Positions 50,530 through 63,229 of a stretch of DNA of 64,000 bases are shown piece by piece. Under the pieces are notes generated by a model. That model was not told the DNA's origin, did not search any database, and saw nothing but the letters and a program-made list of their open reading frames with translations. How positions within the stretch are numbered: the stretch's first letter is position 1; the number at the start of each line of letters is the position of its first letter. The DNA is from Branchiostoma floridae (Eukaryota > Chordata > Leptocardii > Amphioxiformes > Branchiostomatidae): assembly GCF_000003815.2 (NCBI RefSeq), contig NC_049983.1, forward strand, positions 21,445,650 to 21,509,649, given 5' to 3'. A program made the translations under genes and the position numbers.

Positions 50530-52616
50530 TCATGCAGTGGACAGATAGTTTTAATAATGTCTTTGGTAATGAAATACATACAAATCAGCACCTGATTAGA
50601 ACATTACATACATACAAACATACAATGTTACATCACATGACAGTACTGGTATTAATGTAAAAAAAACACCCCATATTAGGTGACAACACACCTGAGTTGT
50701 ACCAGTGCTATCTAAACCAAATCTTAGGTACATAAAAAAGGGTAAGAAACAATTGGCACAACACTATCACACCCATCATTACTTAATAGTTTATAGGGTG
50801 CAGAGTAACTGTCAGGAGTATCAGTTGGTGTGATAAAAAAAAGAACATGGCCATAATGTTATCTTCTGTTCACATTACCTAAAAATGTATAACAGTAGAA
50901 TGTTTTATGGGCAACGACCATTAGTAAAAAATATGTCTTAGTATCCATAATCTGTACCAAGACAGTGAACATGGTGTTCAGAAAAGTTTTATACATGTAC
51001 CAAATCTCTGCCCTTTATGGAATGGACTTAGTGCTAGAACTGTATCACAATACAACATCATCATCTTGTAACGTACAACCCAAAGGGAAGGACTAACGTT
51101 AGATAAAGAAAGTATGGCTTGATAAGATATCGTAAAATGGTGGTTGTCTGAGGCAATAGATTTCATTACAAAATACCTATATCACATTGACTTGTGGAAG
51201 TCATATTTTTGTATTAATTTTGCACAATCTACATCTTATCTAAAGTTGTGTCCTATCTGTGATCATCATAAAATGAGTATGTTATACTCCTAAACAACCA
51301 GTGCCTGACTTTGACAGCAGTGAACATGGAATGATATATGTGCACACAACACATACATGTATGTGAGTTGCATAGATACTGTGTGGCTCCAAACACACAT
51401 TCTGTGTCCTTAATATCTATATTCCTGTACTTCCCTATACGAAGGCAGTCCAATAATCGCTAACAATTGTACATGAATAACACAATACTGTGTGTCCCCA
51501 TATTGTCAAGAAGGGCCCATCAAACACTGAGAAAAATATGGAAAAGATGAGAAAAAAATTCTTGATGAGATCTCTTCTTGACTGCTTAGCTAGAGTCAAA
51601 CCTGTACAAGTAACAACCTCTGCAAAAGGACCACCTGGGAAATGTAACAAAGTTTCCAAGAGTGGTCGTCTTGGACAAGTTTGACCATATATAACAATTC
51701 ATTAGTTTACAGTTGTGTAAAACTCAAACCATTTCACCATCTTGTTACAGACAGTACACAGATATATCACACTTAACTGTTAATGTTTCCTAGCTGCCAT
51801 ATCATATAAATACAACACAAAGTATATAATACACCACATAAAGGAATGTACTGTAGGGTCTGCAGCCAATGGGATTAGTGAAGAACCACTTGTTTTCATG
51901 TGTCCTTGTGAAAATTGTGTACTATGTAATCTTCACAGGTTGTGGCTCAAAACCCATCATGATACAACAATAAGTCCTGATCATACACCACATAAACAAC
52001 ATATAGTAATGTCCATTGTATGTATTCAGAAGACAACCATGTACTGTATATCTAAAACCATGTACATGTATAATCTCTATCTAAAACATCTTTTTCGGTT
52101 GGTTGGTATGCTGTAAAATAACCACTAGATTAAATAAAACAAGTAAAGTATCAGTACTTTGGTATCACAAATCTGAATGCTATAACAGCCAACCCAACAT
52201 AACAAGTTACATGTATCTCCCTTCCCTACCTCACACTTATGATAATGTTAAGTATTCGTTAGCACCATGTTAGCTAAATCTGTGTAACACAAAGAATGCA
52301 AACTATCAGGCACATTATACTGTGCTGGGAATGCATACATGTACATAGTACTACAACAGGATACAAACAAGTGCCGTTAGAGTTAACAGTGCCTTTTTTA
52401 CCATGATCATAGAATGTTTTGCACAATGCTACATAAACACACAGCCTGAACACATAGAATACTTAACTGCAGGAAGGAATAAACCAAAGATTTTCATTTG
52501 CTATGTACATCCAAAGCACAATTGTACATAAATGGGATACAAAAAAATAAACACTCTTAATTGCAAACACTGCCTCCGCATGAAGCTTGCATTGTGACAT
52601 AACCATATTGCAGAGA
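50530..52616 (-). other. Probable original 3' UTR of CEP83
   Basis: If the nested transposons at 52625-59096 are removed, this sequence directly follows the CEP83 stop codon, because the left target duplication CCCTATAG (52617-52624) is the partner of CCCTACAG (59097-59104) over the stop. The stretch is AT-rich with no coding, and reads like 3' UTR on the minus strand. A minus-strand ATTAAA (50550-50555) followed by a GT-rich run is a plausible polyadenylation signal. Whether transcripts still cross the 6.5 kb of transposon to reach it is unknown. Confidence 0.4.
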
Positions 52617-52879
52617 CCCTATAGCAGGGTTGTAGTCAGCCTGAAATTATTTTCCGTCCCTTTGATTTTGAATCTTTTTGAAATATAGACCATCTAAATT
52701 GCTCTTTCCTGCATTTTGAGGTGTAACTTTTGCTGGTAGACTAAGCTGTTCAACGGCATCTGTCTTGGTGAAAACTTACACAAGGGAGACAGTTTATTAT
52801 ATCTTTACATATTGAATTTTGTTCATCATAGAGGATGGAATGGGCAAAATTTACAGCGGCGATCGCGTTATAGTTAACA

Positions 52880-53026
52880 CCCGTCAGCGTCAGTGACGCG
52901 TCAGAAATCGTCAGTGACGCGTCAGAAATCGTCAGTGACTGGTCAGAAACCGTCAGACATCGTCAGACGCCCGTCAGAATTCGTCAGAGTCAAACGCTGA
53001 CCAGTCAGCGTCAGCGTTAATGATAT
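52880..53026 (+). repeat. Left subterminal GTCAG array
   Basis: Thirteen GTCAG motifs in under 150 bp, several within CGTCAGTGACGCGTCAGAAA units, ending in the near-palindrome CGCTGACCAGTCAGCG. Such arrays are typical binding-site clusters for a transposase, but that role is inferred. Confidence 0.85.
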
Positions 53027-54732
53027 GTATGAGATGGGGTCAGGTTTCATGTTTATTTTGTACCCCGACAAGACAATAGCAATTTTGTCACCTCCTAGTG
53101 TGCGAGTTTTCGTTGCGATGTTGCGGCAGGTCGTTGACCCCCGAAATACGCAGCTTACGTGGATATGCCACGCTTCTGGGAGGGGAAAGTTGTTAACTTA
53201 ATAATTGCTCTTCTGAACAGCTTAAATACACACACAAACCTAAAAGGGGTTGGCAATGATTAGAGTATGAGTCATTCTTGTTGAAGATTAATTGCTAAAA
53301 AAAAAATTCAGTGTTGTCTTCTCAAGCCGACTGTGGCCATATTGTTTAAATTTATCACGTTGTTATTTGGGCTCTAACCGCTCGACCGATCTGAGACTGG
53401 GAGGGACTTATATACGGACTTTCAGTGCTTTAGCGACTCATTTGTTAGATCGTTATTTTCTACGGGTTTCATTTGATAAATGTAAGAAAATGGCATCGTG
53501 GTCAATAATGACACCGGGGAAATCGTCTGACACGGCCGGGTACAATCGACATTTTTGATCATGCGAAATTTCCAGGTACGGGTGAAGAAAAGCCGGCCTG
53601 AGAAACCAATTATTATATTCTTTAGCAGATAAATGACAGATTTTATCGAGATCGATTCTTGTCTTGCACTTGTCGGCAAATACCGATATTTTTTGTATTG
53701 CTTCAAAAACTCACACATCGACGGGAAACACGTGTAGTTTCCAATTTCCCGAGCAGAAACAGTCCGTGCGATTAGAAAAACAGCTCACAAAACTGCGATC
53801 TACGTAGTAGCTAAGTGAATACTCGTATATGATTGTAACGCAGTTTGAAAAGCTAGCAATGATATCCGATGTTACAAAACTGTGTCAGCGTTTTTATGTA
53901 TCCACGGAACAAAGAAAAATACGGCAAAATGTAAAGCACAGCGCATGCTAAAAAAGATGTTGGACCCGAACGTACCTTACGTGTAAACAAACATGAATGC
54001 TAGCGGTACAACTTCTCTGCGGGTTCAAACTGCGATTGATTAAGCCGAAGATTTAACTAAAATTTGTGCACTGTAACAAAAATAGCGAGAACCGTTTGGG
54101 ATCTGAATGAAACTGAACTATAGATTATACGATTTGATACATCGGCTTCTGATCGCGCGCGAAACAGCAGCTCCGAGGACGGCCACTACAAATGTACACT
54201 CTCCCACGATGCGCGATCTTGATTGACAGATCGCGGTTGTTTGAAGATCGTGCCGCCCGCGCCGGACTGTCTGAAACTTTGCAGGACGCAAATTCAATCA
54301 TTTTTGACAGCCAACCAGCAAAGAAGAAAACTGACAGCAGAAATAACTTGATACTTGTCTATAAATGAGGTTCTGTCGCCGGCGTTCGAAGAACCCCGAA
54401 ACATGGCTCGCAAAAAATAAACGAAAGACTTGCAGTTCGAAATCTAATACCGTAAGACCAAGGAGGTTACTTGGTAAGACGGAAAATTTGTGGCAACCAG
54501 GAACCGGGATAAATCTAAATGAGGGAAGGGCCCATGCAGAAATAAATGTTTTGTCCATCAGACGTGCCCGTCGAAACATTGAATGAGCCAACTGTCTCTT
54601 TCTGTCAAATTTATGCATGATCAACATATCCGATGCTTTATTTAGTACATTACTTGTGCTCGCAATTATGAGGGTAACGAATTTCTGTGTAGGCTCTGGA
54701 AACTACAAGGGCGTGTTTCCCGTCGGCGTGCG

Positions 54733-56043
54733 AGTTTTCGCAGGTGATTACAGGGGATTGTTGTAAACAAAACAAAACATTATCGTGTTTGGCGATAAGT
54801 GGAAGACAAGAATTGATCCGGTAAAATCTCTTGTTATTAATTAATGTTTTGAGTAGAGTTACTACTATATGGTTCCTCAAGGCGGTTTTATTAAATCCTT
54901 AGAATTTTTTCGCAGGTGATTACAGGGGATTGTTGTAAACAAAACAAAACATTATCGTGCTCGGGTAAGTTACGGCCTGTGATTCGATGGAGCTCGCCGA
55001 GGAGTGAAAAAAGGGCGCGGCCCTGCAAGGTTACCAGGGCGATGGAACTGAACATGAAATTCGAACCACTCCGTGACCGCAGTTGATCCCGCATGACCGC
55101 AACGTTTTTAGAACGTTTTTTTCATAATGTAACGTTACATTGCGGAAACAGGAACTCACCATATATGGGGCACACTAACTACTTTTGGTAAAACGTCAGA
55201 ATGCTAACAGTATTAAATATTAATTAAGAATTTATCAAATATTGACATCATTCGATGTGAATGACAAAAAGGGGCCCTCGCGGAAGCCGCATAATGGTAC
55301 CGTCCGAGCCCCGTTCGATCGAACGGCCGAACCACCGGGATGTGAAATGGCGGGAAAACGGCAGCGGTGCTGGCAGCGGTTCTGAAGAACCGTTACCATC
55401 ACATTTACGGGCTTCGTCCTCGGTGACAACAGTAATTTTGCTGACAATATAGGTAAATTTGCATTTACAATCCCTTTCCAAAGAACTTTATCCATCGCTA
55501 TTTGGTTTAATCATAAAAGGATTTCCTCTAGAGCGGATTATTAACCAAAAATGAGAAAAAAATCCCCATTTTACCTATTATTACCCAAAAAAAAGTTATG
55601 ATGAATTGATTTACAACAAAATAGCGACGGACAAACTAAATCTACATGAGGTAATCTGTCATCCTGTGAAATATGAGGGTCCAGAACGTTATCTCCACCG
55701 AGGACAGGGCACATGAAATAAATCTGATATTTTTAACCAAAATGTGTGTTTTTAACCCCAAAAATCCATCATATGAACATTATGTGCCCAGTTTTTTAAT
55801 TTCATTTCATTACTACTAGCACCTTGTGAAATTTCATTGCAATACGATCATGCTATCGGATTTTATAAGCATATACCCATTTTACCATGTCTACCGCCGT
55901 GTCACATACCGTAATTGACCAGAGTGTTTGGCGATAAGTGGAAGACAAGAATTGATCCGGTAAAATCTCTTGTTATTAATTAATGTTTTGAGTAGAGTTA
56001 CTACTATATGGTTCCTCAAGGTGGTTTTATTAAATCCTTAGAA
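54733..56043 (+). repeat. Tandem duplication (172-bp period), second unit split by a 964-bp insert
   Basis: Unit 1 at about 54733-54904 runs from TTTTCGCAGGTGATTACAGG through TTATCGTG to GTTTGGCGATAAGTGGAAGA and TTAAATCCTTAGAA. Unit 2 starts at about 54905, breaks at ATCGTG (54957-54959), and resumes at GTGTTTGGCGATAAG (55924) to end near 56043. The break point with GTG on both sides indicates a 3-bp duplication. Confidence 0.8.
54960..55923. mobile_element. 964-bp insertion inside the 6.2-kb element
   Basis: Defined by the interrupted second copy of a tandem duplication; flanked by GTG at 54957-54959 and 55924-55926. Its ends show a weak inverted match (GGGTAAGTTACGG...TGTGA against GGTCAATTACGG...TGTGA). 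It carries a CpG-rich patch at 55260-55440 and AT-rich remainder, with no ORF that I recognise. Possibly another non-autonomous transposon. Confidence 0.6.
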
Positions 56044-56189
56044 GTTTTGAGTCCATGGCAAACGTGTACAATCATCATCATCTGTGTACAATACATTTTA
56101 CCGCCATGGTAAAGATCACCGTAATTACGATAAGTTGATTATTAATTAGACATCATTAGCTACTTTTGTAGGCTAGGAATTTAGGTTTT

Positions 56190-56800
56190 CGTCCGCCGGC
56201 TTTTTCCTGGAAACACTGCTGCTCGTACCGTCAAGGGCGCAACTCAGCATGAAGACCTACCTGTTCCTGAGGGAGCTCTTGGGTCGGAACATCGCCATCG
56301 GACGTTCCTGCTCATCGGACAGTCGACCAGGGCATATTCCAACTATACGCCATGGCATATAATCAACCTTATGTGTTTTTGAATCTATTTATTAAGTGTG
56401 TTTTGTCTGATATCAGTTCAAAACTTCTGTTGAATTCACTAACACTAGTTCTAGTTCTACTTTGTTTAACGGTAGCTAGGCTAGAAAAGTAGGATTCAGG
56501 TCGACACCATCCGCTGGCTTCCTTGGCACTTGTCGAGGTTGCAACTCAGCCAAGACCTACCTGTTCCTGGCGGAGCTCTCGGGACAGAACATCGCTGACG
56601 GGCAGTCGACCGACGAAACCATACTCCAGGGCATATATTCAACCTTATGTGTTTTTTAATCTATTTGTTGTGTTTTGTCTGCTGTTAGTTCAAAAGTTCT
56701 GTTGGATTAACTAACATTGGTTCTATTTCTAATATGGATAAAGGGATTCGGGTTTCCATCCGTTTAATAGCTTCCTTGGCACAATGATGATCGTTGAGAA
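56190..56800 (+). repeat. Two and a half tandem units of 250-300 bp, with a coding-like fragment
   Basis: Units share CAACTCAGC, GACCTACCTGTTCCTG, GGAGCTCT and CAACCTTATGTGTTTTT; anchors at about 56241 and 56543, with a partial third from about 56748. Unit 2 reads NSAKTYLFLAELSGQNIADG in one frame. Unit 1 has the same peptide with a frameshift and changes. It looks like a duplicated fragment of former coding sequence, source unknown. Confidence 0.55.
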
Positions 56801-57610
56801 ATCTTACGTGTGTGCAACTTATGTACGCTTCATCATAACATATAACGTTTAAAACCTGGAAGGTAAGTTTATACCAGGTTTTCCATCATCATTCTGCTGC
56901 TATCCGATCGAAAATCATCTATTCCGAGTGTTGGAAATACGGTAAGTACATTGCTAAATGCGCTAGTGTATGAAGAAACCCAATGCCTTAAGTCATCTCG
57001 AGTCGCTGTGGTACCACATACAAAATGTTTCAGTATAAACCACAACTGAATCTGTCTAACAAAGAGAGAGACGCTTTGTGTGGAACATAACGATGTGGGT
57101 TTACGATACATGTCGTTCAAAAATATTCAAAATATATTCATCGACACTAAATATCGCTATCAAGTAGAATAAACCAAGAAAAAAAATCAAACACGGCGGA
57201 AAAACATGCACCGTGCTGATTGTTCTTACAATAAATGAATGAAGACCTTTATTGCACATTTTTGCCACACCGGGCCGGCGGGCCCGGGCGGTACAGTACC
57301 GGCGGGCCCGTTCTTTGAGAATGCCGCCAAACCAAGGTCCTTGGTGAAACTCAAAGAAGCCGCATGTGTCAATCAATTGAGCGGCGCGGTGGGAGGGTCC
57401 GGGTCAGACCCATTTTTCCTACAATTCTACCGGTATCTGAACATCTAATAAACATATTCACATGCACAAAACATCTATTGATTTTGATTACAACAATGCA
57501 GGCCTCATATTTTCACCCCAAACCCCAAAGATTGACAACATTTCCCACTTTCTAAACGCCACACAAAACTCTATCCTAAGCCGTGACGTCGTGATTACGT
57601 GTGTGTCATA

Positions 57611-57645
57611 CCAAGGACGTTACATCGTTGATGTAACGTCCTTGG
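57611..57645. repeat. Perfect 16-bp-arm palindrome with 3-nt loop
   Basis: CCAAGGACGTTACATC, GTT, then GATGTAACGTCCTTGG. The arms are perfectly complementary. It lies inside the 6.2-kb transposon. Such perfect hairpins are rare by chance and are often recent or functional. Confidence 0.9.
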
Positions 57646-58882
57646 TCATACCGAGGAGAAAATTGTCTCACTATAGAATCCTTGGTTATAATTAATAGGA
57701 AGCGAGGACGAAGTAGCTCTAAAATAGCCCCACCATTCCAGGTGTGTATTTGTCGAACGTTAAGGGTGCAAAGATATTCCTATTAAAATTCGTAGGTTTT
57801 CCGCGTGCTTGCGAGCGGATGTTCCCGATCGCTGATCACAAATTCGGCGGCAAAATCTTCGATAAAAAACACACCAAAACCTCTTCAAAGCGGATTATTT
57901 GACAGAGAACTCCTTTTTTTCAGTGCTGTGCCGTTAAATTCTTTATATACACTGATATAAACATAGCCAAACACGTGGTTCCTGCAAGCTCGGCCTCGCG
58001 AGGAGCCGCCAATCCCTTCGTTTCCCGCCAACAGTTGTGCAAATCTTGCCTACAGTAGCCAATCAGAGACACGTATGTGCTACGTCACGTAATATTTACA
58101 TACTGTTACGCAATGCTGGGCCCGTCGTCCGTAATGTAGCAGCTAAACATGGCAAAGTTTTCAGTTGAAGTTTACGCCGTATTTAACTTAAAAATACCGG
58201 GACTCGAACTTATATGATATTTTTACGTCTTGCACAATAATTATATAAAGGTAGCCCAGCCAAAAATGTATTTTTGTAGTCGATCATGGCCGGCAGCTCG
58301 CTTGTTTGATGGTTGTCTGCCGCTAGTTTCTGGCCGATGGGCGTGCTTTGCGTTGCCGAAAATAATATAACTGTTACATTGCCGCGTTCTTCGGGTTGAC
58401 TTTTTGGATTGACCTTTATTTTATTAAAAGAAATAGGTATCCTGAGAATGTTTCCCCACCTCAGAACTTTTTTACTACACAGTGTCGTGAACATGATGTT
58501 GACAATTTTGCTCCGATTTTTTGCAAACGTAGCGTTACACTACCTCCCGGCCGGCGCTCGCTGAGCAGAGTTTTATCGAGGAACGCTACTTTCGTGATAA
58601 AATCTATTGCAACAACAATAATCAACAGGCAAATAAAGAGCTGATGAGCAAAATAAGTAATTGATAAAGTAAGAACAAACAACTCCACTCTTTAATAGCA
58701 AGCAGTACCAGAAGAAAATGTCTGTATAATTCGATCTACTGAAATGCAGGCAAGATCGCCGTCTCTTTCCGCTGTTCCGTTTTTGTATCGGCAAGTTACT
58801 GCGCAGCATGACGCAAATAAGTTCTCCTCCCACTAATCTGTGATGTTACCGCGGCCTGCATATGAATGGTTCGTCATTTGAT

Positions 58883-59009
58883 AACGCTGACCAGTCAGAA
58901 ATGCGGCAGTCTCCGTCAGTGACGCGTCAGAAAAATGCTGTGACGGAATAATGTCCGTCAGAAATCGTCAGTGACGCGTCAGAAGTCGTCAGCGTCAGTG
59001 ACGGGTGTT
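58883..59009 (+). repeat. Right subterminal GTCAG array
   Basis: Eight GTCAG motifs, beginning with the same CGCTGACCAGTCAG as the inner edge of the left array and ending GCGTCAGTGACGGGTGTTAA. The motif orientation matches the left array rather than mirroring it. Confidence 0.85.
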
Positions 59010-59098
59010 AACTATGGCGTGAACGCCGCTGTATGTCTGTTCCCATCTGCAAAATTCCATCAAAGGATGGAAGGACAGGTGCTGGCTACAACCCTGCC

Positions 59099-59278
59099 CT
59101 ACAGGTCGAGATTGTCGATGAAGGCGCGCTCCCCGTCCTTCTTCTCCTCGTCCTCGTCGCTCCTCTCGTGCGGCGGCGGCCCCTGACCGGTCAGCACGTC
59201 CATCTGCTGCTTCTGCAGGTCGTCCAGCTCGTCCAGCCGCTGCCGCACCATGGATAGCTCCTTATGGTGCTGTCTTTC
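59099..59278 (-). CDS. CEP83: CEP83 last exon and stop codon
   Basis: Encodes ERQHHKELSMVRQRLDELDD, LQKQQMDVLTGQGPPPHERS, the acidic DEDEEKKDGE and a FIDNLDL end, with TAG at 59101-59099. The first part parallels the last coiled coil of human CEP83; the acidic end does not. The acceptor is CTCCCAG, and imperfect copies of this acceptor and exon start recur upstream in the intron. Two bases after the stop the sequence becomes the end of a hAT-type MITE. Confidence 0.92.
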   Translation of the reverse strand, partial: ERQHHKELSMVRQRLDELDDLQKQQMDVLTGQGPPPHERSDEDEEKKDGERAFIDNLDL

Positions 59279-62200
59279 CTGGGAGTACATGGGTGGGAGC
59301 TTTGGTTACTGATGCAAGCACATACAATGCATTTACACCATGGACAGTTCCTTATGGTGCTATCCCTCCTGAGGAGTACACAGTGGAGATGATGAGACCT
59401 TGGGTTACCATTGTAAGCATCTACAACAATGCCACCCCCGTCTTGTTTCCAGGTTCAAATCTGAATGTTATAATGCGCCAACACAGCAAGCTATATCTCC
59501 ATTCCATTTTACACCATGGACAGGTCCTTATGTTGCTGTCTCTCTTGGGAATGCAGGGTGGTAGAGATGGGAGCTTTTGTTACCAATGAATTAAAGCACC
59601 AAAGCTACACCCCTGTCTTGTTTCCAGTTTCAAATCTGAATGTTATAACAGTCAACATAACAACTTATATCTCCATTCCATTATACACCATGGACAGTTG
59701 CTAATGGTGCTGTCAATCCTGGGGGAGACAGGGGTAGAAAAGATGGCCACTTTGGTAAGAATCTGTCTACAATAAATTCACACCTTGTCTTGTTTCCAGT
59801 TTCAGTAAAACAAACCAAGCAGCCACCATAAAACGTACTACATGAGGAAAAAAGCAGGAGTGCTCAATACATGATTTAATGTGATCTTAGATACAAAAGG
59901 CAGCACAATCAGTAAGATCAGTTCAGAAATCCAGGCAGCCGTGAGATATGTGTCTCACCAACATGCACACCAATCTGTCAACCCTTCCTCAAAACTGCTG
60001 TACTTTTCAACTTCCACACCTCCTTAGGCTCTAGTAGACTGGTCTAGAGTGTAGAAGCTTTGAAGGAAATGTAGGTGAAATGTGAAATGTTCCACTCTAA
60101 AGCAGGTGAGAGCAGGAGATGACAGTTGGGATGTCCATGTCAGTTGGCGCGGCATACCTGTTCGATAAAACTCACGTAAGGCAGAGATGTGTCCAGTGGG
60201 AGCGTGGCCGAGGCAAACGACAGGCCTCCGATAGATATCTCGTGCAGCCCGCCGGTACCCGCCACAATCATGCTGAACTCCTTGTGTTTCCGGATGAAGT
60301 CGCGGAACTGTTTCTTCAGGCGGTTGTACATCTCTGCCGGGACGTTGCCCCTGGAGGATACAGGCATTTGTGAGGATGTTTTCTCACAGTAAAACCTACA
60401 CATTGCCAAGCAAAACTTACAGTCTAGTCACACACAGATTGTACTTAAAATGTACAGTATGATGTACTGTAAAAAAACTGGTGTGTTATGCCTAAAGGCT
60501 GTTTGCAAAAGAAAAACATAATCTTCACCTAAGTGTCTATGATGCTCAACAAAATTATATTTCTGCTCATGATTCATTTTAAATTCATGAATACATTTCA
60601 CTATCTGTTTCATTCCACAATCATACAGCAATATGAAAACTACAACGTTAATTGTAAGAATAATTTTGTATCATAACGTAAATAGGATACTATTACAGGC
60701 ATGGGAAGCAAACCTCACATACACAAGGTGTACAGAACAGTCACATATTTCATACCTTTCCTTCATTATTGTGATCCTAGCATGCGTGGCAAGACAGAAA
60801 CAGGCAAGAGTCACAGGCAAGACAGTGTACCAGGTTATCATGACAACATGATGCAGAGTTACAGTTAAGACAGTGAGGTGAAGGTGACAATGATCATGAC
60901 AATGTGCAAAACTTTAAAATGAACGCTTGAAGATCTTACTTACTTTCTACAGTAATAGTGATTATGTTTTAAAAGATTGAGTGCACAAAGATGACATTCA
61001 AGTGGGACTGCTATTTTAGTTGGACTGATATCTTGATGAGAGTATGACCTGAGTGTGACAATAAGTAATGGTAACAGTGTGAAGGTCTTACTTGAGTTTA
61101 TCTCTCTCCAAAACAGCCTCCTCCCGTCTGGCATCTACAATCTTCAGCCTGCTCTTTAATTTCTGCACAACTCGGGAGCAGTTCTTCTTCAGCTGAAGAC
61201 ACAGAAATATGGTCATGGTCGGTTAACTCCTGTTCATTTGGAGCAATGAACATCTTGGGGGTCAATTAAAAAGATGCAAAAAAATCCAAAATAATGATAT
61301 GAGATAATTATGAGTCAAACAAATTCTGGTTGAAAGTGCTGGTATGAAAGATTAACATAAGATGGGTACTAGTATATTGGTACTCTAAATTAAAACAAAC
61401 CTAAAGGCTAAAGTAAAAAAAAGTAGTTACTCAAGCTGTCAAGCATCTGGATATGGTTTTGGAAACGGTCAGCCGTTTCAACTGGAATCCACCAGTTTTC
61501 GTCAGTAACTTGAGTAAAAACTTTTTGGTGTATCTTATTACCTGGATGTCTAACCTACATCGACCTAAAGGCTTGCCCACTATGTTCATACATCGTGTAT
61601 TTGTTAATCAGTAAACAAACCCCATGTACAGTATCTCCCACCTTCCTCTGGTACTGCACAGACTGGTCCAGTTTCTGACTCTGTTTCTGGAGTTCCTATT
61701 TCTTATTCATCAGTAAACAAACCCCATGTATCTCCCACCTTTCTCTGGTACTGCACAGACTGGTCCAGTTTCTGACTCTGTTTCTGGAGTTCCTATTTCT
61801 TATTCATCAGTAAACAAACCCCATGTATCTCCCACCTTTCTCTGGTACTGCACAGACTGGTCCAGTTTCTGACCCTGTTTCTGGAGTTCCTATTTCTTAT
61901 TCATCAGTAAACAAACCCCCTGTATCTCCCACCTTCCTCTGCCTGGAGTTCCTATTTCTTATTCATCAGTAAACAAACCCCAAGTATCTCCCACCTTCCT
62001 CTGGTACTGCACAGACTGGTCCAGTTTCTGACTCTGTGCCTGGAGTTCCTATTTCTTATTCATCAGTAAACAAACCCCAAGTATCTCCCACCTTTCTCTG
62101 GTACTGCACAGACTGGTCCAGTTTCTGACTCTGAGCCTGGAGTTCCTATTTCTTATTCATCAGTAAACAAACCCCCTGTATCTCCCACCTTCCTCTGGTA

Positions 62201-63229
62201 CTGCACAGACTGGTCCAGTTTCTGACCCTGTTTCTGGAGTTCCTATTTCTTATTCATCAGTAAACAAACCCCATGTATCTCCCACCTTTCTCTGGTACTG
62301 CACAGACTGGTCCAGTTTCTGACTCTGAGCCTGGAGTTCCTATTTCTTACACAGTAAACAAACCCCATGTATGTCCCACCTTTCTCTGGTACTGTACAGA
62401 CTGGTCCAGTTTCTGACTCTGTGCCTGGAGTTCCTATTTCTTATTCATCAGTAAACAAACCCCCTGTATCTCCCACCTTTCTCTGGTACTGCACAGACTG
62501 GTCCAGTTTCTGACTCTGAGCCTGGAGTTCCTATTTCTTACTCTAGTCATCAGTAAACAAACCCCAAGTATCTCCCACCTTCCTCTGGTACTGTACAGAC
62601 TGGTCCAGTTTCTGACTCTGTGCCTGGAGTTCCCTCTCTAGATCCTCCACTCGCCTCTCCAGCGCCTGCCGCTCCTCCAGCCACGCCAGCCGCTTCTCGT
62701 TCACTCCTTTGGTCGCCTCCGTCTGCGCTTTGTCCGCTGCCTCACGTGCTGCCCGCAGCTATTGGGTAAAAGGGTGTTTGATGGTAAGTCTAGTTGTTCT
62801 GTTTTTTTTCAAAATATAGATGCTGTAACATATGGCCTAATAGTACAAACTATTAGATATTGAAAGCATTCTTGGGAATTTTACAAGGAAAATCAACAAC
62901 ATTTGCTCCAAAACGATGAGAGGGACAGAAAAAAATTTAAAGCTGGAGACAGCCCTGAGTACAATGCAAAGAGAAGAAATGTACTCTTCATACAAAATCT
63001 ATAACAGTTGTATCATAACAACATTGTACAATTGTCCCTGCTAACCTCATCTTTCAGCCTGTCCACCGCCTGTTTGAGTGAGCGGTTCTCTGTGGCCAGG
63101 TCATTCTCTGCCCCGGACATGTTCCTGAGTTGTGCCTGAGCCTCCTGAAGTCTCTGTCGCAGCTCTGAGTTGTTCGCTCGTTCTGTTTCCACCTCCCTCT
63201 GGATGGATTGTTGCTGTTGCACCCTACCC
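59099..63229 (-). CDS. CEP83: CEP83 (CCDC41) homologue, last five exons
   Basis: A coiled-coil protein of centriole distal appendages, needed for membrane docking in ciliogenesis. Minus-strand exons in transcript order: 63229-63046, 62758-62579, 61192-61092, 60350-60158, 59278-59099. They encode about 280 residues, roughly the C-terminal 40% judged against about 700 for the human protein. Diagnostic stretches are AENDLATENRSLKQAVDRLK, NVPAEMYNRLKKQFRDFIRK with HKEFSMIV, and ERQHHKELSMVRQRLDELDD, parallel to human wording around [19 protein letters not shown] and QHQRELSLLRKRLEEL. All junction phases agree. The 5' exons lie beyond the window. Unlike the human tail, this one is acidic and ends FIDNLDL. 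The stop codon sits inside a transposon target duplication. Confidence 0.93.
59247..59806 (-). repeat. CEP83: Tandem copies of the CEP83 last-exon acceptor region
   Basis: The exon-start segment reading ACCATGG...CCTTATGGTGCTGTC on the plus strand recurs at 59337, 59513 and 59687, after the real one at 59247. Spacings are 90, 176 and 174 bp. The two 175-bp units also share CTTGTTTCCAG and TTCAAATCTGAATGTTATAA, and a partial fragment ends near 59806. On the minus strand the copies carry decayed acceptors (CTCCTCAG, TTCCCAAG) and early stops, so they are decoys rather than usable exons. Confidence 0.8.
60158..60350 (-). CDS. CEP83: CEP83 exon with the conserved NVP...Y...RL block
   Basis: Encodes GNVPAEMYNRLKKQFRDFIR, KHKEFSMIVAGTGGLHEISI and SLPYVSFIEQ. 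This is the strongest identity mark of the gene: human CEP83 has [20 protein letters not shown] followed by HNEFRSL at the same place. Acceptor TATCCTCCAG, donor GTATGCCG; the phase matches both neighbours. Confidence 0.93.
61092..61192 (-). CDS. CEP83: CEP83 exon (coiled coil)
   Basis: Encodes LKKNCSRVVQKLKSRLKIVD and ARREEAVLERDKLK, aligned in position with the [20 protein letters not shown] region of human CEP83. Acceptor TGTCTTCAG, donor GTAAGACC. It ends two bases into a lysine codon that the next exon completes. Confidence 0.9.
61606..62640 (-). repeat. CEP83: Minisatellite, about 11 units of 95-97 bp, made of exon end plus splice donor
   Basis: On the plus strand each unit has CAGTAAACAAACCCC, TATCTCCCACCTTTCTCTGG, TACTGCACAGACTGGTCCAG and CTGGAGTTCCTATTTCTTA. 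Full units have their TGGTACTG anchor near 61651, 61748, 61841, 61999, 62099, 62195, 62291, 62386, 62473 and 62583 (the real exon); one near 61930 is internally deleted. On the minus strand every full unit contains TAG, then a 54-nt in-frame ELQAQSQKLDQSVQYQRK-like cassette, then a GTGGGAG donor. The spacer between cassettes is about 43 nt. Confidence 0.9.
62579..62758 (-). CDS. CEP83: CEP83 exon whose 3' end is tandemly amplified
   Basis: A 180-nt, phase 0-0 exon encoding LRAAREAADKAQTEATKGVN, EKRLAWLEERQALERRVEDL and ERELQAQSQKLDQSV, then QYQRK, followed by a GTGGGAG donor. It is continuous coiled coil. The last 54 nt, with the donor, are repeated about ten more times in the following intron (61606-62578). 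Confidence 0.9.
63046..63229 (-). CDS. CEP83: CEP83 exon (coiled coil)
   Basis: Encodes VQQQQSIQREVETERANNSE, LRQRLQEAQAQLRNMSGAEN and DLATENRSLKQAVDRLKDE, heptad-rich coiled coil, with a GTTAGC donor at 63045. Two acceptors 6 nt apart (CCCCAG and GGGTAG) keep the same phase, so the exon starts at 63229 or 63223 and may or may not add two residues. The preceding exon is not in the window. Confidence 0.88.

Follow-up and report, generated by a model that had tools for sequence, protein, structure and literature searches.

Probable nested insertion of an old hAT-type element and a young TA-target element at the stop codon of amphioxus CEP83

The CEP83 gene of the amphioxus Branchiostoma floridae, as read in a stretch of 64,000 nucleotides of its genome assembly (contig NC_049983.1, positions 21445650-21509649; hereafter the window), very probably bears at its 3' end two nested DNA-transposon insertions, an old miniature inverted-repeat transposable element (MITE) of hAT type and, inside it, a young element flanked by TA. 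The genome-wide searches covered the whole assembly (513 Mb in 431 contigs). CEP83 lies on the minus strand and closes with the codons GAC CTG TAG, the stop codon TAG occupying positions 59101-59099. The parts of the locus are the following, in window coordinates:

52617..52624, no strand assigned: left octamer of the MITE target duplication, CCCTATAG (minus strand CTATAGGG), from the octamer comparison with relatives
52625..52851, plus strand: left part of the hAT-type MITE, with terminal inverted repeat (TIR) CAGGGTTGTAGTCAGC at 52625-52640 (78-83% identity to copies covering nearly the whole arm; alignment with seven two-ended copies)
52852..59033, no strand assigned: inner transposon bearing TA at both termini, TACAGCGGCG...CGCCGCTGTA (termini present in 13/13 two-ended copies)
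59034..59096, plus strand: right part of the hAT-type MITE, with TIR GCTGGCTACAACCCTG (genomic matches and alignment with copies)
59097..59104, no strand assigned: right octamer of the MITE target duplication, CCCTACAG (minus strand CTGTAGGG), from the octamer comparison with relatives
59099..59281 (5' limit uncertain by a few bases), minus strand: last CEP83 exon, coding portion (open reading frame, splice acceptor and match to the human CEP83 query)

The original prediction, made from the DNA letters, had placed octamers at 52617-52624 and 59097-59104 on either side of a CAGGG...CCCTG element, with the stop codon in the right copy and the element beginning two bases after it. These coordinates were confirmed: the two octamers agree at 7/8 positions, and the minus strand reads TAG, GG and then CAGGG. 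TAG is present in both octamers, and the protein is unchanged because the target copy retained CTG TAG on the coding side, as had likewise been proposed. The single mismatch in eight fits an old MITE. For comparison, 49 loci related to the MITE were collected, 20 (of 22 places matching the MITE arms) fetched by position and 29 from the 39 scored places besides the window; two of these loci (L014 and L041) represent the same place, and neither yielded both MITE ends. Both ends were found in 42 related elements, whose flanking octamers agree at 8/8 positions in 22 cases, at 7/8 in 10 and at 6/8 or fewer in 10, versus 0/126 control pairs taken 10, 25 or 40 bases further outside that agree at six or more. 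Since 32 of the 42 relatives thus match at seven or eight positions against none of the controls at six or more, the octamers are, judged by the behavior of the family, a genuine 8-bp target duplication containing the CEP83 stop codon, and the hAT-type duplication put forward earlier stands. A chance match of the octamers, with the MITE brought beside the stop codon by a rearrangement, could draw on the 7/8 instead of 8/8 agreement and on the 10 relatives without a good duplication; besides the contrast between relatives and controls, however, the octamers directly adjoin the TIR and carry the central TA in which the MITE family is enriched (9/32 duplications), and this explanation was rejected as very improbable.

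By comparison with its copies, the outer element, with the termini CAGGGTTGTAG...CTACAACCCTG, is a non-autonomous hAT-type MITE of approximately 292 bp that was split by an unrelated insertion. Its TIR is formed by positions 52624-52640 pairing with 59081-59097 (17 nt, 94% complementary), and the octamers adjoin it exactly. The exact 16-mer of the MITE end, CAGGGTTGTAGCCAGC, occurs 607 + 610 times in the genome (1217 in total; 0 for the reversed-pattern control). Once positions 52854-59033 are removed, seven MITE copies of 286-314 bp can be aligned with the joined arms over their full length, and the length at the join is consistent with a single TA. On the left side, the MITE matches extend no further than 52852. 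A possible full-length hAT partner was encountered elsewhere: among the first 100 places listed, one (G000:C1:1299774-1302729) has two exact 16-bp MITE ends facing each other at a distance of 2956 bp. The genome contains 33 matches to PF05699, two of which were read as 4-kb stretches, both without the MITE TIR.

With 6182 of 6472 bases, the second transposon makes up most of the interval between the octamers. Seventeen copies of it were fetched from the genome, of which 16 match at least part of the window copy at E 1e-20; in all 13 copies with both ends read, TA is present on both sides and the flanks are unrelated. At the right boundary, 17 genomic copies of the inner family end at 59031-59040 (11/17 at 59033), where matches to the MITE family take over, starting at 59036-59043; near this end, 12 of the 17 matches outside the window are 97-99% identical. 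The original prediction of one CAGGG...CCCTG element is therefore to be amended: its hAT-type MITE ends were right, but the 6182 bp inside belong to an unrelated TA-flanked transposon. Accordingly, a single hAT element of 6.47 kb, inserted in one event, was rejected as scarcely credible, even though hAT-like outer ends and one target duplication bound the whole span: the inner part possesses separate termini and recurs elsewhere in the genome at unrelated sites, the outer arms by themselves make up a family of contiguous elements about 290 bp long, and the two parts differ approximately 14- to 32-fold in their divergence.

This ratio derives from the comparison of each part with the consensus of its relatives. 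Against a consensus of seven relatives, the MITE shows differences at 27/291 sites (Kimura two-parameter distance 0.10), versus 7/2046 and 3/1189 sites (together 10/3235) for the ends of the inner element against the consensus of close copies; inclusion of its middle (27/1885) results in 37/5120. The MITE sample consisted of seven of the 49 loci, 286-314 bp in length and matching nearly the whole arm, including two (L034, L047) with poor duplications; for the inner element nine copies were used on the left (2050 bp), eight on the right (1200 bp) and seven in the middle. Loci L067-L072, L074 and L075 were excluded as more diverged or incomplete, L073 was used for the left end alone, and the middle was compared without L064, which carries an insertion. 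With the mutation rate of 5.89e-9 given for B. floridae, together with a diversity pi of 0.0397, in the cited portion of PMC12862219, the computed ages are about 17 million generations for the MITE and, for the inner element, 0.53 million when dated from its ends or 1.23 million when the middle is included; these ages and the sharing probabilities given below might all be altered by selection, by gene conversion or by which copies were chosen. The two insertions are thus, on these distances, of very different age, the MITE being old and the inner element young (approximately 0.5-1.2 million generations). Under neutrality, the probability that a second chromosome has the inner insertion was calculated as 0.14 (0.07-0.25) or 0.31 (0.23-0.40), and as about 0.99 for the MITE. 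Because of its age and the diversity of the species, the inner insertion is probably still polymorphic.

The assignment of the gene to CEP83 is supported by tblastn matches to a query sequence taken as that of human CEP83. Nine of the 12 matches are collinear on the minus strand and comprise residues 27-700 of the 701; they stretch across some 12.7 kb, from 71900 to 59180 in window numbering (positions above 64000 originating from flanking sequence), without matches for approximately residues 185-266 and 351-447; the remaining three are weak (E 0.76, 1.7 and 6.6) and out of order. The last coding exon begins near 59281, is read on the minus strand and closes with the residues RAFIDNLDL and TAG; human residues 663-700 match here, at 59293-59180, and the amphioxus protein continues 26 residues past the C-terminus of the human query. 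This exon looks like the conserved last coding exon because it was aligned with the C-terminal residues of the human protein, and its frame appears coding up to the stop since 54/60 codons have G or C as their final base. In the Pfam search with four open reading frames (ORFs) of CEP83 exons, two gave matches only under the curated cut-offs and two none; the search of solved structures with CEP83 exons yielded no match better than E 0.21.

The native sequence 3' of CEP83 was moved by 6480 bp. The displacement of about 6.5 kb originally predicted is hence correct in size, but it resulted from two events, the MITE contributing only about 300 bp and the recent 6.18-kb inner element the rest. The canonical-type poly(A) hexamers on the CEP83-sense strand within the two elements include the following:

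58691..58696, minus strand: ATTAAA, the first canonical-type hexamer after the CEP83 stop, at +402
58415..58425, minus strand: two overlapping AATAAA in the inner element, at +673 and +678
52793..52798, minus strand: AATAAA of the MITE, 120 nt from the stop without the inner element and 6300 nt from it now

In the sequence of events regarded as very probable, the MITE of about 292 bp would have inserted first, with an 8-bp staggered target CTGTAGGG that includes the stop codon; the copying of the target would have kept CTG TAG at the coding side, leaving the protein the same and shifting the native 3' sequence by about 300 bp, and the AATAAA of the MITE would have been placed 120 nt past the stop, where it might have been used as a signal. 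Much later (about 0.5-1.2 million generations ago), the 6.18-kb TA-target element, in which no gene was recognised, would have entered the MITE between the stop and this AATAAA, the position in which it is found. In the haplotype of the assembly, CEP83 RNA would then probably end at a signal of the inner element or read through approximately 6.3 kb, so that CEP83 transcripts ending now in transposon DNA are plausible. Going one step further, the old MITE may have come to serve CEP83 as its working 3' untranslated region (UTR) and poly(A) signal, with the young inner element as a segregating allele that separates the stop from the signal; individuals would then carry two or three 3'-end alleles (long-insert, MITE-only and perhaps empty) differing by 6.18 kb and encoding the same protein. 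To this extension we assign a rather low probability. A nested structure that is real and functionally silent, the main 3' end of CEP83 being formed via an alternative last exon or an unrecognised signal, is possible, if on the unlikely side. It would accord with the native flank, in which neither AATAAA nor ATTAAA is present within the first 2.06 kb (0 versus 1.6 expected from Markov simulations, P 0.21, no departure from chance); because of this lack, the ancestral 3' end may use another signal or lie elsewhere. The alignment of the last exon with the C-terminal residues of the human query argues against it.

Several results weigh against the two-step scenario or its dating and functional extension. 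Ten of the 42 MITE relatives lack a flanking duplication at 7/8 or better, and TA was found at the inner insertion point in none of the seven aligned relatives (most have T-runs there, L054 has no bases). Divergence within the inner element is higher in the middle than at the ends, although 16 of the 27 differences in the middle are located within 57600-57644, a clustering that suggests one local hairpin event. Due to the subfamily structure, the age of the MITE is an upper bound. Both the native flank (52250-52616) and the exon region (59105-60440) are present in one copy in the assembly, and no alternative haplotype of either was found there. As to the signals, AATAAA is positioned at 98-119 nt in only four of the seven closest MITE relatives (anywhere on the CEP83-sense strand in 13 of the 42 elements), and the hexamer counts are in no excess over the simulations, neither in the inner element (13 versus a mean of 8.3, P 0.07) nor in the MITE (1 versus 0.65, P 0.48). 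Because the counts do not depart from the simulations, transposon-supplied 3' ends are allowed by the sequence and not demonstrated by it.

Tc1/mariner-like transposons duplicate a TA target. Like such TA-target transposons, the inner element has TA alone in common between its two ends, with the inverted termini CAGCGGCG...CGCCGCTG; it differs in that its copies span 4.9-6.2 kb and that Pfam recognised no transposase among the 10 ORFs searched in the window copy. For the outer element, the cited portion of PMC3517528 offers a closer parallel: the Buster group of hAT transposons, exemplified by the MITEs named Mar of Drosophila willistoni, has the target consensus nnnTAnnn, hAT TIRs are 5 to 27 bp in length, and 8-bp target duplications, short TIRs, a non-coding interior and many copies are described there as well. 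Both window octamers fit nnnTAnnn; TA is indeed the commonest central dinucleotide of the family (9/32 duplications), but it is not general, as the other 23/32 are without it. No transposase was linked to the family, so that placement of this MITE in Buster as opposed to another hAT group is tentative. The rice gene Ghd2 likewise has a MITE, the sMITE, in its 3' UTR; it alters expression and, according to the cited portion of PMC5338036, its effect on translation was measured. In contrast to this Stowaway-like sMITE, the CEP83 element is of hAT type, lies directly on the stop codon and harbors a second element. No publication on this insertion at CEP83 turned up in the literature searched (titles and abstract openings).

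Two-step transposon insertion at the end of a gene is known biology, and each of the two events is ordinary in kind. The locus nevertheless presents a clean, two-layered and datable case in which a stop codon was carried through a transposon insertion by the target duplication, the protein remaining intact while all adjoining 3' sequence was replaced. If the young insertion is polymorphic, as predicted, the effect of 3' UTR replacement on a conserved ciliary gene could be read directly from sibling haplotypes in crosses of amphioxus, and if the MITE does serve as 3' UTR, nature would here provide a test of what a 3' UTR does in a gene of cilium assembly.

Several minor observations concern the inner element. 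A stretch of about 1 kb is unique to the window copy:

54910..55923, no strand assigned: window-only part of the inner element (the match jumps across it in the 13 two-ended copies, apart from a short repeat)

It is bounded by the duplications 54785-54909/55924-56048 (125 nt, 98%) and 54735-54792/54907-54964 (58 nt, 97%); the partial duplications at 54735-56048 look as if two versions of the inner element had recombined. A perfect palindrome with arms of 17 nt (57610-57626/57630-57646) is situated at the cluster of 16 differences. Six ORFs of loci related to the inner element were searched against Pfam, four of them without a match. A DDE_3 match at L071:1226-1783, a locus with a partial inner copy, remained under the Pfam cut-off (E 2.3e-5, 24.7 versus 28.6 bits) and is separated by about 4 kb from the sequence in common with the inner element, not linked to it; the flanking sequence of L072 gave one match to ribosomal protein S2. 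At L069:1486-4528, ORFs of 280 and 706 amino acids without Pfam match adjoin a partial inner copy with a right end; the longer one is about 0.6 kb away from the part in common with the inner element, and no left end was found in the stretch. These ORFs are a candidate coding relative of the inner TA-target transposon.

In the surroundings of the locus, a plexin gene on the plus strand (Plexin_cytopl in three ORFs) is convergent with CEP83. Within a CEP83 intron, tandem units of about 97 bp are located at 61607-62633; the unit includes the end of the preceding exon (approximately 62580-62640) and its splice donor, and the array thus appears to have grown from the exon edge. The 40-nt start of the last exon (59242-59281) has three copies in the last intron, at 59332-59371, 59508-59547 and 59682-59721, with 78-88% identity to the copy at 59332. 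Taken with the 97-bp array, these copies point to exon-edge duplications in two CEP83 introns.

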